Positions 10,772-17,625 of a stretch of DNA of 64,000 nt are shown here, piece by piece. How positions within the stretch are numbered: position 1 is the stretch's first letter; each line of letters opens with the position of its first letter. The notes beneath the pieces were generated by a model. The model was not told where the DNA came from, ran no database searches, and was given only the letters and a program-made list of their open reading frames with translations. The stretch spans positions 71,083 through 135,082 of the forward strand of contig CAKOGP040000001.1 of NCBI GenBank assembly GCA_933822405.4, read 5' to 3'. The stretch is from Cylindrotheca closterium. Lineage: Eukaryota > Bacillariophyta > Bacillariophyceae > Bacillariales > Bacillariaceae. The translations under genes and the position numbers were made by a program.

Positions 10772-12200
10772 AACGACATGATCATCAAAATAACATACGC
10801 CGATAGGTATCCATAGTATTGCGCAAGATATTGACCCAAGAATCCAGATACCGTTCCTCCGATACTCATCGCGGCTGTGGTCATTCCAAGAGTGAGTCCA
10901 AATCGCCCGGTTCCTCCACTAATATCACTAGTGACCAAAATGTACATGGTTCCAAAAAGTCCGGCACCGACACCATCGAGAATTTGTGTGGACAAGATCA
11001 CTGTTTGCAGGAAAAAACCAGCGTCACTATCACCTTTAATCGCCAAAAGTCCAGCCAAAATGGCACACCGAATTGGGACAATACCGAGACCAACCAAAAA
11101 CAGGCCCTTACGACCGTATTTTTCCGAGTAAGTACCACAAGTCTTTGCACTGGCCACCATGACTAGCTGAGCAATCGTGATACACATTCCACTCAATAGG
11201 ATTCCATTCTTTCCGTTCCCAATTGCTAGAGTTTGCATAACCAAAGGAAGGACGGTTCCATTTGACAAGTGGAACAAGAAGCAAATTACAATAAATAGAA
11301 GCAAAATTGGATCCCGAAGAAGTTGCAGCGGCGATGTTGCCTTTTGCGTGCCATCGGCATTGTGTGTGGTTGCGGCATCTCCAAAAGCATAACTAGGTTC
11401 CACTTGACTAGTTGTTTTAGCATTGGCAGCTTCGTCGGAAACCTCAGCAACAAGTCCACGGGCAGCATCATGATCAATATCTTCGGATTTAATTTGATTC
11501 AGAAAGTAAACAAAAAAGAGGCAAGCAATCGGACTGACGATGAACAAGACCCCAATGTTGGGGTAGAGAGAGTAGGCGATAATGGATCCAACTCCGACAA
11601 TAATGGCAGTTCCCAAGTGATTCATCATTTCATTAACGGCAACCTGACCTGTCATACCACTCGAACCCACAATCCCCTGCGTGATACTGTTCAAACCAGG
11701 AGGAATAAATGAGGTGATACCTCCTTGGAGAAACTTGATAAATACCATTAGCAGAAAGTTGTCTTGTGTAGCAAAAATTGCAGTAAGTACGGTCATGGTA
11801 GTGGTAGCAATTCCAGCCATGGAGAGCCACAAGACTTTATTTTCAGTGTAATCATAGAGGTATCCAGCAGGAGTCTGAAAGAGAAACTGAGACATTCCAA
11901 ACACGAAAAATAGAACCCCAACTTGAGTCTCGTGATACTCTTTGGCAACAATCAAGAAAGCACTTTGCATATTGATCTGTAGATTTAAAGAGGGAGGAAA
12001 CAAAGTGAAACGGTTAGATGTGCCACGTTTTGATTGCATCGGCAAGATTTCACCACATAAATGCATGCAATGTTCCGTTGACCCCTCCAATGACGCACCA
12101 TTGTCAAACCATCACGCAACTCTCCCAAAAATAGAGCTGCCCACCGAAGAATGCTCTTCGTTTTCTCTGTCTTTTCTTTCTTTTCAAGATCGGAGCTCAT
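10654..12200 (-). CDS. major facilitator superfamily transporter
   Basis: 474-residue multi-pass membrane transporter. Two exons: 12099-12200 (MSSDLEKKEKTEKTK.. ending LRDGLTM) and 10654-11976 (INMQSAFLIVAKEY...), with the intron at 11977-12098 (GTGCGT..TCTACAG), phase 0. The long ORF alone has a different, non-hydrophobic N terminus, so the spliced start is preferred. About 12 hydrophobic helices are visible. The signature G-Y-L-Y-D-Y-T-E-N-K follows helix 2 and a second GTYSEKYGRKG follows helix 8, the two MFS half-domain loops; an acidic ~60-residue cytosolic loop joins the halves. The substrate cannot be told. The C terminus (ESGQGGEVQPKSDYMEMV) is repeated in the left-hand duplication beyond the N gap. 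Confidence 0.85.
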
Positions 12201-12702
12201 TGTATATTGAATTATAGGTGCTTTCTACTACTACTTCTTCCGATTTTGTTTTTCTTCCTGGCTTTGCATTCAAGGCTTGCAATAATCAAGGAAAGATTGG
12301 CAAGAAGGTTCTGATTCGAAACTATGATCCACGTGCAGAAATTCAAAAGCTCGGGAAAGCTATTTCTTGAATTTTGAAGAGCGCGTGCAGAGCAATCTTT
12401 TTCAACGGATCAAACGAATAGATCGATTGACCATGAGTAATGAACACATACACATCGAACATTACCGTACACATGAACAATTTAAAATTTAGTTTATTTC
12501 ACAACCATTTCTACTGCATTCAATGGACACCGATCTCAAGCACTTGAATTCAGCAGAATCGACAACGATTCGAGCTGTACTTCTAGTGCTGTCATTCTCA
12601 ACGTCCTGCAGAATATGGCCTCGTGAACAATCCGGTAGATTTCTATCCGCGTGAAGCTGGAGACTTAGGTAGCAAAAATGTTACAGCTCCAGGTCCTCAC
12701 GC
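12201..12702. other. intergenic: MFS promoter and SelO 3' UTR
   Basis: About 500 bp between the start of the MFS gene and the end of the SelO gene, both on the minus strand. The part next to SelO forms stem-loops on the minus strand (see the candidate at 12649-12702) and is where a SECIS element would be expected. The rest is AT-rich with no ORF. Confidence 0.45.
12649..12702 (-). promoter_or_regulatory. stem-loop in SelO 3' UTR (SECIS not established)
   Basis: Starting directly after the TAA, the minus strand reads GCGTGA-GGAC-CTGGAG, a 24-nt loop containing GTAAC, then CTCCAG-CT-TCACGC. The two 6-bp arms pair perfectly around a 4x2 internal loop. The position and an AA-containing apical loop recall a SECIS, but the 3' strand lacks the GA needed for the tandem G.A quartet, so this may be another RNA structure. 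An ATGA at 12592-12595 followed by CAGCA..TGCTGA is a weaker alternative. Confidence 0.3.
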
Positions 12703-14787
12703 TTAACTGGATCACGACATGAAAGCAGTACCACCACGAGCAACGGCACTTTCAGGAGCTCGTCGATAGTATGCATCTGCCTCCTCTTGGCTGCCCTCCT
12801 CATAGGGCCGCTGTATCAAGTCGTACAATTCGTTCAAGATGGTATTATCTCCATCATCTGCGGTGGAATACGCATCGACAAGCATCCACTCTCGAAGTAC
12901 ATATTTTGGATTGGCCTCCTTCATCACCTCAAAGACAGCCATGCCCGACGAAGGTCGAGTTGCCTTTATTACTTGTCTCCAATCCTTCAACCAAGCAATC
13001 CATTCTCTCCTAACTTCAGCAGATAGTGGTTCGTAAAATGGACTACTGGGGCTGTTCGGACTTCCTTCCAATGTTTGCATCATTCCATCGTAATCTTCCG
13101 ACTCCAAGTCTGAGAATTCCTTCATTACATAGGTCAGCTGACGCCAGAATAGAGTCCAGTCCGTGCGGGATTTAGGGAAGAGATCTTTCAACTTGTCCCA
13201 CAATTCATCTCCCGCATCTGCATCTCTGGGTAGCCCCAGCTTTAACCGAAAGACCGAGTGGACCTCACCCTCAAATACTTTTTGTGCTCGCGTCATGAAC
13301 TCCTCCACCACCTCATCGGTATCACTGTCACGTGAAGCAGCTATCACTGGTGCTACCGACTCTACAAGAACTTGGTAGTTCACAAAACCCGCCGAGGGCT
13401 GATTTAAGAAGCCAAAATGTTGCCCAGAGCCGGTCCACTTTGCGAATAAAGGATAATATTCTTCCATCCAGCCAAAGGGGCCGTAATCCATAGTGATCCC
13501 ACCGACCAGGCAGTTATCGGCATTGAAATTGCCCTGTGCAAAGCCGACTCTGACCCAGTTGGCTACCATTGTGGCTATTCTTTCCGCAGAATGTTCCAAG
13601 AGTTTGGTTGCTGCACCTTCCAAATCTTTCTTTTCAACAAAGGGATCATAAGCCTCCTGGCGATATTCACGTTTGCAAGCATGCCAGATAATTGCTTCCA
13701 ACTCCTTCCACTCTTGGGTAGACGTGTCGTAGCTTTTTTCATCATTGGCTCTTGTTTGTTCCACCCTTCGGGCAAAGAGATCCAAGTGGCCAATTCGGAC
13801 AAAGGAAGAGGATACACGGCAGGTGATGGCACAAGCCTCAGATATCATGATATTCGGATCTGCCTTTTGCGATGTGCGAAGTTGCTGAATAATTTGTTTG
13901 CGCTTCTCTTCAGGATATTGGGCCAACCGAATATCATCCATTTCGGGAATCTGGAGGACTGCATCATCCGAATACCAAGCGCGTTGCGTCCTGTCCTGTT
14001 GGGAGCGTACTAGACTAAGCGCTCGAGTCGTTTTCACTCCGAGGTAGTGCATCGCTTCGCTGGCCAAGAATTCACGAATACTCGATCTTAGGACTGCTCG
14101 ACCATCGGCTCCTCGATGGAAGGGCGTCTTCCCAGATCCCTTGAGCTGCATTTCGTATCCGTTGAGTTCGGCGATGCTAATGGCCCGTCCATCACCATAT
14201 CCGTTCCCTGTTCCGTACGGACAATTGTTCGTATACCTTGTACCCATGATGGAAAGGGCATAAGGTGTCGCCCAAGTCTCCTCAAGTGCTAAATTACCAG
14301 ACACCCAGTTTAGAAAGTCGTCTGATTCGACTTGTTCAGGAGTCAGTTTCAGAAGGTTGAAAGCAACGTCCTCGGAGACGAGAACTCGCTCAGGTGCTTT
14401 CAGACCGGTTGGTTTTACGAGTACATAGTGTCCATTGAAGACTGGTCGTTTGCTGCGGTTATCCGTGTCCTCACTCAAGTGCTCGAAACCGACACTTTTC
14501 TTGAAGTTTTCCTCTGTTTCTGGAAAGAGATCACGTGGCCAAGAGTTATCTAATTGTAGAGACGACAAAATGGATTTGGTTGATGACATGTTGCCACTTT
14601 GTTTGCTGGGCGCGAGAGCAACGGATGTACTGCTGAAAAGTGATGAAATAAAAAGAGTCGTAGTGGCTGTCACAGGTGTTTTCAATTTCATTCTACGACT
14701 TCCCACCACTTTTGTTGCGGTCTTGGTTGCGACGCTCCTACGTGCAAACTGTGAAACGAGACTTCTGCCAGCACAAATAATTACCAT
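12703..14787 (-). CDS. SELENOO: selenoprotein O (protein adenylyltransferase SelO)
   Basis: Mitochondrial-type SelO (UPF0061), a pseudokinase-fold enzyme that AMPylates Ser/Thr/Tyr of target proteins in redox control. The start at 14787 gives MVIICAGRSLVSQFARRSVA, a basic amphipathic leader suited to mitochondria or plastid. Family blocks: PYGTGNGYGDGRA, LKGSGKTPFHRGADGR, VLRSSIREFLASEAM, CRVSSSFVRIGHLD, FAQGNFNADNCLVGG and MDYGPFGWMEEYYP (metal and catalytic residues). The open frame apparently stops at a TGA (12712-12714), but the frame continues TGA-TCC-AGT-TAA, giving a C terminus ..FMS-U-S-S. SelO selenoproteins carry Sec three residues from the end in a U-S-S tail (human SELENOO), so I extend the CDS to the TAA at 12703. 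Readthrough requires a SECIS, which I could not define. Without recoding the protein ends at 12715. Predicted 694 residues including Sec. Confidence 0.85.
12712..12714 (-). other. predicted selenocysteine codon (TGA)
   Basis: In-frame TGA in the context ATG-TCG-TGA-TCC-AGT-TAA, coding M-S-U-S-S-stop, at the exact position of Sec/Cys in the SelO family. Confidence 0.75.
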
Positions 14788-15394
14788 CCACTTGAGAACA
14801 AATAGACACAGGTAGCTACGATCCGAAAGTTGTACAACTGTACGAATCAATGGGATGGAAGGGCTTCGATGGTACGATACGATGAAATGAAAATGCTGAC
14901 GCAATCATGGATGAGATGACTACTTCGACATGTGCGACGTACAGACTGTGGAAAAGCCTGCGGAAACCGTGACTCACTCCTCTCCTTCTCCCAGAATTCC
15001 AGATCAAGAAGATTTATTTATCTTATGATATCCGTGATTGACTGTTTTTCCTGTTAAACCTTGAAAGTCAAAGCACGCGCTGTTGACACTTCTGAAACTT
15101 AAAGCCATGGATGATATTTTAGCCTTGCAAGATATGCACTCTTGCTGCGCAATAATTACAAATTTGGAGGCACGAGGCATAAACCCCAATGTCCAAATGT
15201 GTTGAAATACTACCAATTCCTGTAATTAACGATCAGCATCACAGATTAAGCTTCACCATATCTTTACAGATCTCACAAAATTCGTTTTGCGAAAGATCGT
15301 CTCTTCATTTGTGTACGTTGAATGAATGTTTGTGGCATGTCGACAAGGAGCATTCCGAAACCAACCTCACATATTATTTCGCAGTGGAATCAGG
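14788..15394. promoter_or_regulatory. divergent intergenic region (SelO / SKG-vWD)
   Basis: About 600 bp between two divergent starts. No RNA gene or convincing ORF; it should carry the promoters and leaders of both genes. Confidence 0.35.
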
Positions 15395-17625
15395 ATGAAG
15401 TCTTTTCTTCCTTTTCTCTTGGCGCTCATTTTGGGCGCAGCCTTGTTCACATTTGGATACCGGCAAGGCCACTCTTCTGCCACCGAGAGTGCAGAACAGG
15501 TAGCTGATGGGGGCAAGCCTGCCTTTCAGTTTCCGGAAGGAGAGCTACCGGTCGCGGAAGGAGAATTGGAGTTGGGCTTTGACGCCCTCGAGATTCAACC
15601 AGAATCGAAACTGTCAAAGAGACAACGTCGCCTTGCTCGTGATGATCGACGTCGGGCCAAAAAGGGTTCCAAAGGAGGAGGTTCCAAGGGAGGTTCCAAG
15701 GGAGGATCAAAAGGATGCCCCAAAGGCTTCAGGTACTCCAAAGGGGCCAAAGGATCAAAGGGCTCTAAGGGCTCTAAGGGAGGATCAGGAACTTGTTTAC
15801 CGAATGGAAACGCTCCCTCTCCCGAAATCCAACCTGTCGGCATATCTCCTCTTGCCCCTGTGTCCTCGCCAATGGCTGCACCCGCCACTGTGCCATTCAC
15901 CGTTCCTATTACAGCACCAAATTCTCCGCCAATTGCATCGCCAGTTGCCGTGACCATCTCTTATCACTCCACCAAGGGCGGAGGCTCGAAGGGTTATTCC
16001 AAAGGAGGTTCCAAGGGAGCAGCTCCTTCCTCAGTTGCTTCGCCGACATTTGGAAGTGCGTCTCCTGCCTCATTTCCTTCAAGCTCAGCTCCTATTGTTA
16101 CCTTTGGAACTCCTTCTGGATCCACAGCTCCAGCATCTGCTCCTGGAGGCCCTTCTATTTACGTCGAAGCTACAGCAAAGGATTGCCAAGCAATCACAAA
16201 CGGACAACTTGTCCAAGGCCAAAACGGTATGGACAGGTCGACATTTACATTTTCATTCGATCTCTGGTTAAACAATGGTGTGACGAACATGGCAACTGTC
16301 ATCGCCACAGCAAAAGCAGCACTGCAAGCATTGGTTGCTCAAGGTATTGTGAATTGTGGTTCGTCCTCCAAAGGAAAAGGAAAAGGAAAAGGATCAAATA
16401 GAAAGCTACAACAGAGACGCAGACTTCAGCACAAGCACAAACATCAGAGACACCACCGTCACGGTCGTCACCACCGCAAGGAGCGACGCAGACTGGCATT
16501 GGACCCGAACGTCATTGCCAACGTGCTCTGGGACCTTGTTACTTGTGTGGAAACAGCAGAGTCACATGTAACTTGCACTGGACTTGTCGACGTCTTCCTT
16601 CGAGGGCCCGCCTCCCCCGAAGAAATTGCAGCAGTACTCATAGCCTACCTTGAGAACCCAACTTTCCCAGTTGATTCTGGTTTGGACCTAGTTGCCTACC
16701 TTCTTAACAACGTCATAATCCTCCCTCTGGAGGATCTTCCCCTAGTAACCGCAAGCGACGCCGGAAGCAGAGGCGACCCCCACTGTAAGTATTTTGCAAT
16801 CGCATGCTGTTACGTTTTTTCCATTGCCGCTGCTAACTTTTGTATTTGATTGCAATGATTACAGTCACATCTTGGAAGGGTGAGCACTTTGAGTTCCACG
16901 GGCAGTGCGATTTGGTCTTGGCAAAGGATGCCAACTTCGCGGATGGGCTTGGATTGGATGTTCAAATCCGAACCAAACTTGTTCGATATTGGAGTTACAT
17001 CAAGACCGCAGCTGTTCGCATCGGCGACGATTTCCTCGAAGTCGAGGGGTCTAGCGATTTGGACAATGATCGGGCCAACTACTGGATCAACTTTGATCAC
17101 CAAGCAAAGTCCAAGACCCTTGGAGGTTTCCCATTGGCCGTTGTGGATGATGGGGCCCGACCTTTCCCCAAGCGCAGATTTGAGATCGACTTTGACTCAA
17201 AGTTCACTGGCCAGAAGATTGTGATTGCCACCTACAAGGAATTCGTCAAGGTTGATTTCATCGATGCTTCTGCAGAATCGGTTGGAAACACTATGGGAAT
17301 TTTGGGCGACTTTCGAACTGGTGTGACTTATGCTCGTGATCAATCCACTGTCATCGAGGACTTCAATGAATTGGGTCTCGAATGGCAAGTGCGCCCAGCT
17401 GACGACATGATGCTGTTCCACGATATCTCCTATCCACAGTACCCCAAGTCTTGTCTACTTCCCGAAGACCCGCGTGGAGATCGTCGCCGTCGAATGGACG
17501 AGAGCGGAGTTTCCATGGAAGAGGCAGAAAAGGCCTGTGCCACTTTGAAGGATCCATTGAGTATCAAGGATTGCGTGTACGACATTATGGCTACTCAAGA
17601 TCTAGATATGGCGGGTGCATACTAA
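15395..17625 (+). CDS. SKG-repeat, von Willebrand D domain secreted protein
   Basis: 716-residue protein from two exons (15395-16784, 16865-17625; GTAAGT..TTACAG, phase 1). The ATG at 15395 opens a signal peptide or anchor (MKSFLPFLLALILGAALFTF). It is followed by a dibasic stretch (RRLARDDRRRAKKG), a Lys/Gly/Ser repeat tract (SKGGSKGGSKG, then KGSKGSKGSKGG; about residues 90-135), a Pro/Ala/Ser-rich linker, a second short SKG tract (~191-211), and a basic His/Arg region (GKGKGKG..HRHGRHHRKERRR). A von Willebrand factor D domain begins at the splice: RGDPHF|TSWKGEHFEFHGQCDLVL. The SKG spacing resembles the Lys-rich motifs of diatom silaffins, so a cell-wall, mucilage or silica-associated role is a reasonable inference; the vWD domain suggests multimerisation. 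The splice joins GDPH to F exactly as in vWD families. Confidence 0.85.

Follow-up and report, generated by a model that had tools for sequence, protein, structure and literature searches.

Does the SelO gene of the diatom Cylindrotheca closterium end at the TGA where its open reading frame closes, or is this TGA read as selenocysteine (Sec), with the protein running on for two more residues? The question arises on the minus strand of the window, by which we mean the whole 64,000-nucleotide stretch of DNA that was analyzed, where the ORF listing gives a 730-aa frame open up to the TGA at 12712-14904. The minus strand from 12720 to 12703, at the end of this frame, reads ATG-TCG-TGA-TCC-AGT-TAA (ATG 12720-12718, TCG 12717-12715, TGA 12714-12712, TCC 12711-12709, AGT 12708-12706, TAA 12705-12703), exactly the M-S-U-S-S-stop of the original prediction, so that only two sense codons separate the TGA from the TAA stop. 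We put at roughly 0.95 the probability, judged from sequence comparisons, that the TGA at 12712..12714 (residue 692 counted from the ATG at 14787) encodes selenocysteine as the third-last residue of the protein.

That the frame ahead of the TGA belongs to SelO had been claimed before and holds, since it scores 223.7 bits with the Pfam family PF02696, whose cut-off is 22.8 (E 5.5e-66). The PDB chains matched in a sequence search are bacterial-type SelO/YdiU proteins (4 distinct sequences), with which the segments LKGSGKTPF, REFLASEA, NFNADN, and DYGPFG line up. The motifs LKG, RExLASEA, N-x-x-N, and DYG, whose roles we take to lie in nucleotide binding and metal binding, are kept across a 13-row diatom alignment. 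The predicted gene product is thus a SelO of the diatom clade, a kinase-like protein adenylyltransferase by its fold and family, and SelO is described as AMPylating proteins in the cited portion of PMC12409994. A search of the genome (47.6 Mb in 572 contigs) returned one SelO match. The longest open frame through the TGA to the TAA spans 12703..14904 on the minus strand; the first TTG at 14904 and the first in-frame ATG at 14787 are the start candidates. Directly downstream on the same strand is a gene for an MFS transporter (PF07690; 10654-12090), whose open frame starts approximately 600 nt past the SelO TAA, and directly upstream on the opposite strand is a 507-aa frame with many K-G-S-K-G repeats (15326-16849, plus strand).

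The most serious alternative is that the TGA is an ordinary stop, with the Ser-Ser-stop behind it arising by chance or left over from a C-S-S tail that has since been lost. TGA is a common terminator in this DNA: the window has 27 listed long frames, and 12 of them, SelO included, close with it. Chance, however, would seldom produce what follows it: from the triplets of the window, Ser-Ser-stop is expected behind a TGA with a probability of about 0.0004 (0.00037), and when both strands of the window are counted, it comes next in 2 of 2565 TGA triplets.

The relatives of the protein speak more directly to this alternative. A homologue search yielded 7769 homologues out of 7998 scored candidates, and in the best 120 of the 7769, 104 terminate precisely one residue ahead of the TGA column, ending in the pattern G-x-x-[FY]-[MF]-[ST], while 9 run on through the column as C-S-S and 7 are without this tail. 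A free stop should drift among relatives, so an end at the same residue in 104/120 of the listed homologues argues against an ordinary stop, and the C-S-S continuations count on the same side. The C-terminal alignment with other SelO proteins that had been proposed as a check therefore gives Cys or a stop at the proposed Sec column; Sec in the relatives is what we infer from it, and the stops of the 104, represented by protein sequences, would be TGA codons. Because all 9 of the listed Cys-bearing relatives end in C-S-S, the Ser-Ser codons and the TAA at 12703..12711 form the tail expected of the family, as the original prediction had proposed from the U-S-S tail of human SELENOO. It had also held that relatives ending at this TGA without a following U/C-S-S would count against recoding; at the level of protein sequence, the listed relatives that have the tail show either a stop at the column or a C-S-S, which answers this point in part.

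The nearest proteins among the matches listed are a metagenome protein (90%) and two named Bacillariaceae sp. MAG (87% and 85%), and the SelO of Cylindrotheca fusiformis (P0007) is 77% identical. A FastTree tree built from 114 rows requires at least 6 changes between stop and Cys, and also 6 when only starred branches are used, a count that is soft because the long branches P0098 and P0114 join in the tree and such joins, according to the tool's own warning, are often false. The smallest starred group that includes the window row and both states has 11 rows, 10 with the stop and 1 with Cys, and the identities mark the Cys row as that of C. fusiformis. Sec and Cys seem to replace one another repeatedly at the tail column of SelO. 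In P0071, P0079, P0080, P0089, and P0098, a variant tail, AGTAFFS/AGVAFFS, stands in place of GGTAFMS, and stop and CSS ends both occur with it.

Recoding of a UGA would call for a SECIS element in the 3' UTR, where the original prediction had suggested looking for one. A SECIS-like element was found there, at 12525..12606 on the minus strand, with a descriptor of our own that is distinct from SECISearch3 and calls for a TGA core opposite a GA, flanked by one helix on the upper and one on the lower side. Helix I pairs 12606-12598 with 12533-12525 over 9 bp, the core TGAC at 12594-12591 lies opposite a TGA at 12538-12536, and helix II and the apical stem occupy 12590-12539, helix II consisting of 6 bp and then 3 bp, parted by a single mismatch, before another apical stem. 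The core is part of a GAATGAC in which the T of TGA, at 12594, lies 111 nt past the point where the TAA begins. With the core held unpaired the hairpin folds at -32.6 kcal/mol, a value reached by 0/3000 dinucleotide shuffles of the UTR (best -31.7), although the descriptor thresholds were set after the SelO candidate had been seen and the shuffle test is not fully blind. An energy of -20 was reached by 133/3000 shuffles and by 0/3000 in combination with GAATGAC, a 7-mer whose chance of occurring alone in 503 nt is 0.06. A free fold gives -32.9 kcal/mol (z -3.2, with 1/200 shuffles equally good) and reproduces the same arms, plus two single pairs within the core. Across both strands of the window, the SelO core ranks fourth by energy among 79 cores and first among the 34 cores of up to 80 nt, and among the 25 window cores listed it is the only one with GAATGAC; at 26 control loci (171,760 nt, both strands counted), 16 cores pass, 1 of them with GAATGAC. 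Two further candidates were set aside: a second strong hairpin right past the stop (approximately 12702-12649), which has its GTGA paired inside the stem and no SECIS core, and a SECIS-like match at control locus L013, where no long frame carrying both a TGA and a tail behind it was seen ahead of the core.

The apical part of the hairpin is where the reading as an ordinary stop finds its second point of support. A canonical SECIS has an unpaired AA about 10-13 nt past the core, and the fold of the SelO hairpin has none at this distance; it has an AA 8 nt past the quartet, which is paired by the predicted helix II. We count the missing apical AA against the identification as a SECIS. The Rfam model SECIS_1 has no match in the window at 11500-15300, anywhere in the genome, or at the SPS2, SelT, two GPx, and two MsrA loci, and since it also misses the elements of these other genes, its silence cannot count against the SelO hairpin. 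MAFFT set the helices of the other SECIS-like elements out of register, hence the use of the descriptor and shuffles rather than a covariance model, and the viral_contigs and genome_contigs collections contained no relative whose DNA could be examined for covariation in the hairpin. The hairpin at 12606-12525 is, on this sequence evidence, a probable but not proven SECIS.

Also expected, if UGA is recoded in this organism, is the machinery for Sec synthesis and insertion, and its genes are present in the genome. The search covered tRNA-Sec, SepSecS, eEFSec, and SPS2, and it recovered the tRNA-Sec and SPS2 for which the original prediction had recommended searching, as well as the other two. 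Five tRNA-Sec matches lie above the Rfam cut-off, more copies than expected for a eukaryote, and ARAGORN finds the anticodon TCA in all five (L001 and L003 holding the same four, L005 the fifth). Four of the genes stand in tandem at C168:176390-176933, spaced by approximately 150 nt, and the fifth is on C124. SepSecS is encoded on the same contig as SelO; a second SepSecS match (L011, C1:402433-403017) includes a single TGA, which probably lies where an intron begins or ends. A 732-aa protein scores above the cut-offs for GTP_EFTU, euk_SelB_III, and eEFSec_4th (PF21208 and PF21131 being eEFSec domains), while the bacterial-type selB model gives it 179.2 bits, under the cut-off of 242.25. SPS2 matches the selD model with 220.9 bits against a cut-off of 125 and itself has an in-frame TGA, in LKGUACK.

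In-frame TGA codons recur in other genes of the genome. They are found at the catalytic position in 5 of 7 GPx matches (L017-L020 and L022), in 1 of 4 Rdx matches, a SelT-like protein with LFCVSUGSK, and in two MsrA genes, L031 (C435:429969-430376) and L032 (C561:101501-101887), at the sites ACGUYWT and ACGUFWG; two more of the 16 MsrA matches also contain a TGA. Of 9 other genes with a TGA, 6 have the GAATGAC of the SelO hairpin within 600 nt past the stop (L012, L015, L018, L019, L031, and L032). The window together with the control loci, which in part overlap one another, gives an expectation of approximately 0.074 per 600 nt, so that 6 of 9 has a chance of about 9e-6. Hairpins built on a GAATGAC core lie 128 nt past the stop in SPS2, 145 nt in SelT, 97 nt in GPx L019, and 93 nt in MsrA L032; the 7-mer itself lies 67 nt past the stop in MsrA L031 and 90 nt past it in L032. 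The strict descriptor is passed by 3 of the 9 genes (L012, L018, and L019), a proportion that we count against the SECIS support, and the SelT and MsrA L032 hairpins pass only with a relaxed first pair, while MsrA L031 has a long 107-nt candidate only. In a descriptor scan, GPx L017, L020, and L022 had neither GAATGAC nor a SECIS-like element in the 600 nt next to the stop that was used, for which introns or another form of SECIS may be the reason.

Recoding of the SelO TGA is strongly supported because the tail column, the machinery, the other TGA-bearing genes, the hairpin, and the published precedent of two diatoms all point to it, and this part of the original prediction is borne out. Termination at the TGA has to contend with a SECIS-like hairpin behind the gene and Sec machinery in the genome as well as with the tail itself, and we consider it very improbable. 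Since recoding of UGA is sometimes inefficient, and selenium shortage can lead to Cys insertion at the codon, one might suppose that it is read mainly as another residue, or too seldom for the long form to prevail; given that the core Sec machinery is complete and that several further in-frame-TGA genes share the hairpin core, this seems to us scarcely credible. If the TGA is read as selenocysteine, tRNA-Sec delivered by eEFSec would read the UGA under the direction of the 3' UTR hairpin, yielding a protein that ends ...GGTAFMS-U-S-S; the hairpin would then work as a SECIS and Sec would be inserted. The Sec may serve as a redox switch or a redox contact on an AMPylating enzyme, as the corresponding residues of human and E. 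coli SelO suggest.

For annotation, taking the TGA as the stop drops the last three residues of SelO. The expectation that automated callers would truncate the protein agrees with named SelO entries from four diatom species, which end at the column with FMS: Nitzschia inconspicua, Seminavis robusta (two entries), Fistulifera solaris, and Phaeodactylum tricornutum. The loss is real and recurrent even though it was described for diatoms in 2012 (PMC3281104), and anyone expressing or modelling a diatom SelO from such entries is working without the Sec tail.

What the Sec would react with is a separate matter. Human SelO has Cys664 and Sec667 and forms peroxide-dependent, Sec-dependent complexes (PMC3994087, in part), and in E. 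coli SelO a disulfide between Cys272 and Cys476 exerts control (PMC7278666, in part). Among the 114 rows, no activation-loop Cys was found in any of 111 loops (the loop was not located in the other 3), the 30 residues ahead of the column are free of Cys in 110, the remaining 4 having theirs well upstream, and GGTAFMSUSS has no Cys three residues ahead of the Sec. Elsewhere in the protein, Cys189 (TNNCPYG) is kept in all 107 rows that are not gapped at this position (7 are), Cys426 (NADNC) in 108/114, Cys323 in 110/114, Cys371 in 102/114, and Cys319 in 77/114. In the predicted structure, the last 34 residues have a pLDDT below 50 and the position of the tail is uninformative. As aligned here, the diatom SelO clade keeps a terminal stop/Sec or Cys without the CxxU Cys or the activation-loop Cys, and the absence of both described partners is possibly a new detail. 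We offer only tentatively, and with somewhat more doubt than belief, the proposal that the diatom terminal Sec acts without either described partner, that a different switch controls AMPylation, and that Sec and Cys have been swapped at the column at least 6 times in the clade. If it is true, Cys189, Cys426, another protein, or glutathione would be candidate partners of the Sec. With the partner cysteines missing, the diatom clade offers a natural test of how the terminal Sec controls SelO.

A 2012 publication had already described Sec in diatom SelO, which means that the recoding phenomenon itself is not new, and C. closterium is a further example. The relevant part of that paper (PMC3281104) lists six misannotated SELO proteins with a terminal Uxx> Sec, two of them from diatoms (Phaeodactylum and Thalassiosira), and states that SELO carries Sec in Metazoa and in a few small eukaryotes, stramenopiles among them. 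Excerpts of other reports count SELENOO among the algal selenoprotein families, with 20 to 44 selenoprotein genes in diatoms (PMC7539508), and describe SelO with a SECIS in Ostreococcus and a red alga, the Thalassiosira SelO being only partial (PMC2375036); these algal reports contradict a statement in PMC7278666 that lower eukaryotes carry Cys in SelO.

Among the closest known likenesses are the SELO proteins of P. tricornutum and T. pseudonana, likewise diatom proteins with a terminal Uxx> Sec according to the same list (PMC3281104). The P. tricornutum entry P0103 is 55% identical to the window SelO and both end in GGTAFMS, although P. tricornutum is credited there with two SELO genes, whereas the C. 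closterium genome has one match. The C. fusiformis SelO shares GGTAFMS ahead of the column but continues as Cys-Ser-Ser where the window has its stop/Sec-Ser-Ser. E. coli SelO/YdiU shares the SelO fold and sequence family and a redox-active residue near the C terminus (PMC7278666, in part), but that residue is Cys476, not Sec, paired with the activation-loop Cys272, whereas the diatom loop is without Cys. Human SELENOO differs in having a Cys three residues before the Sec (CxxU), where the diatom protein has Phe-Met-Ser-Sec, but its C-V-T-U-S-S end, as given in the cited parts of PMC3281104 and PMC3994087, places Sec third from the end and ahead of Ser-Ser, as in the diatom protein.
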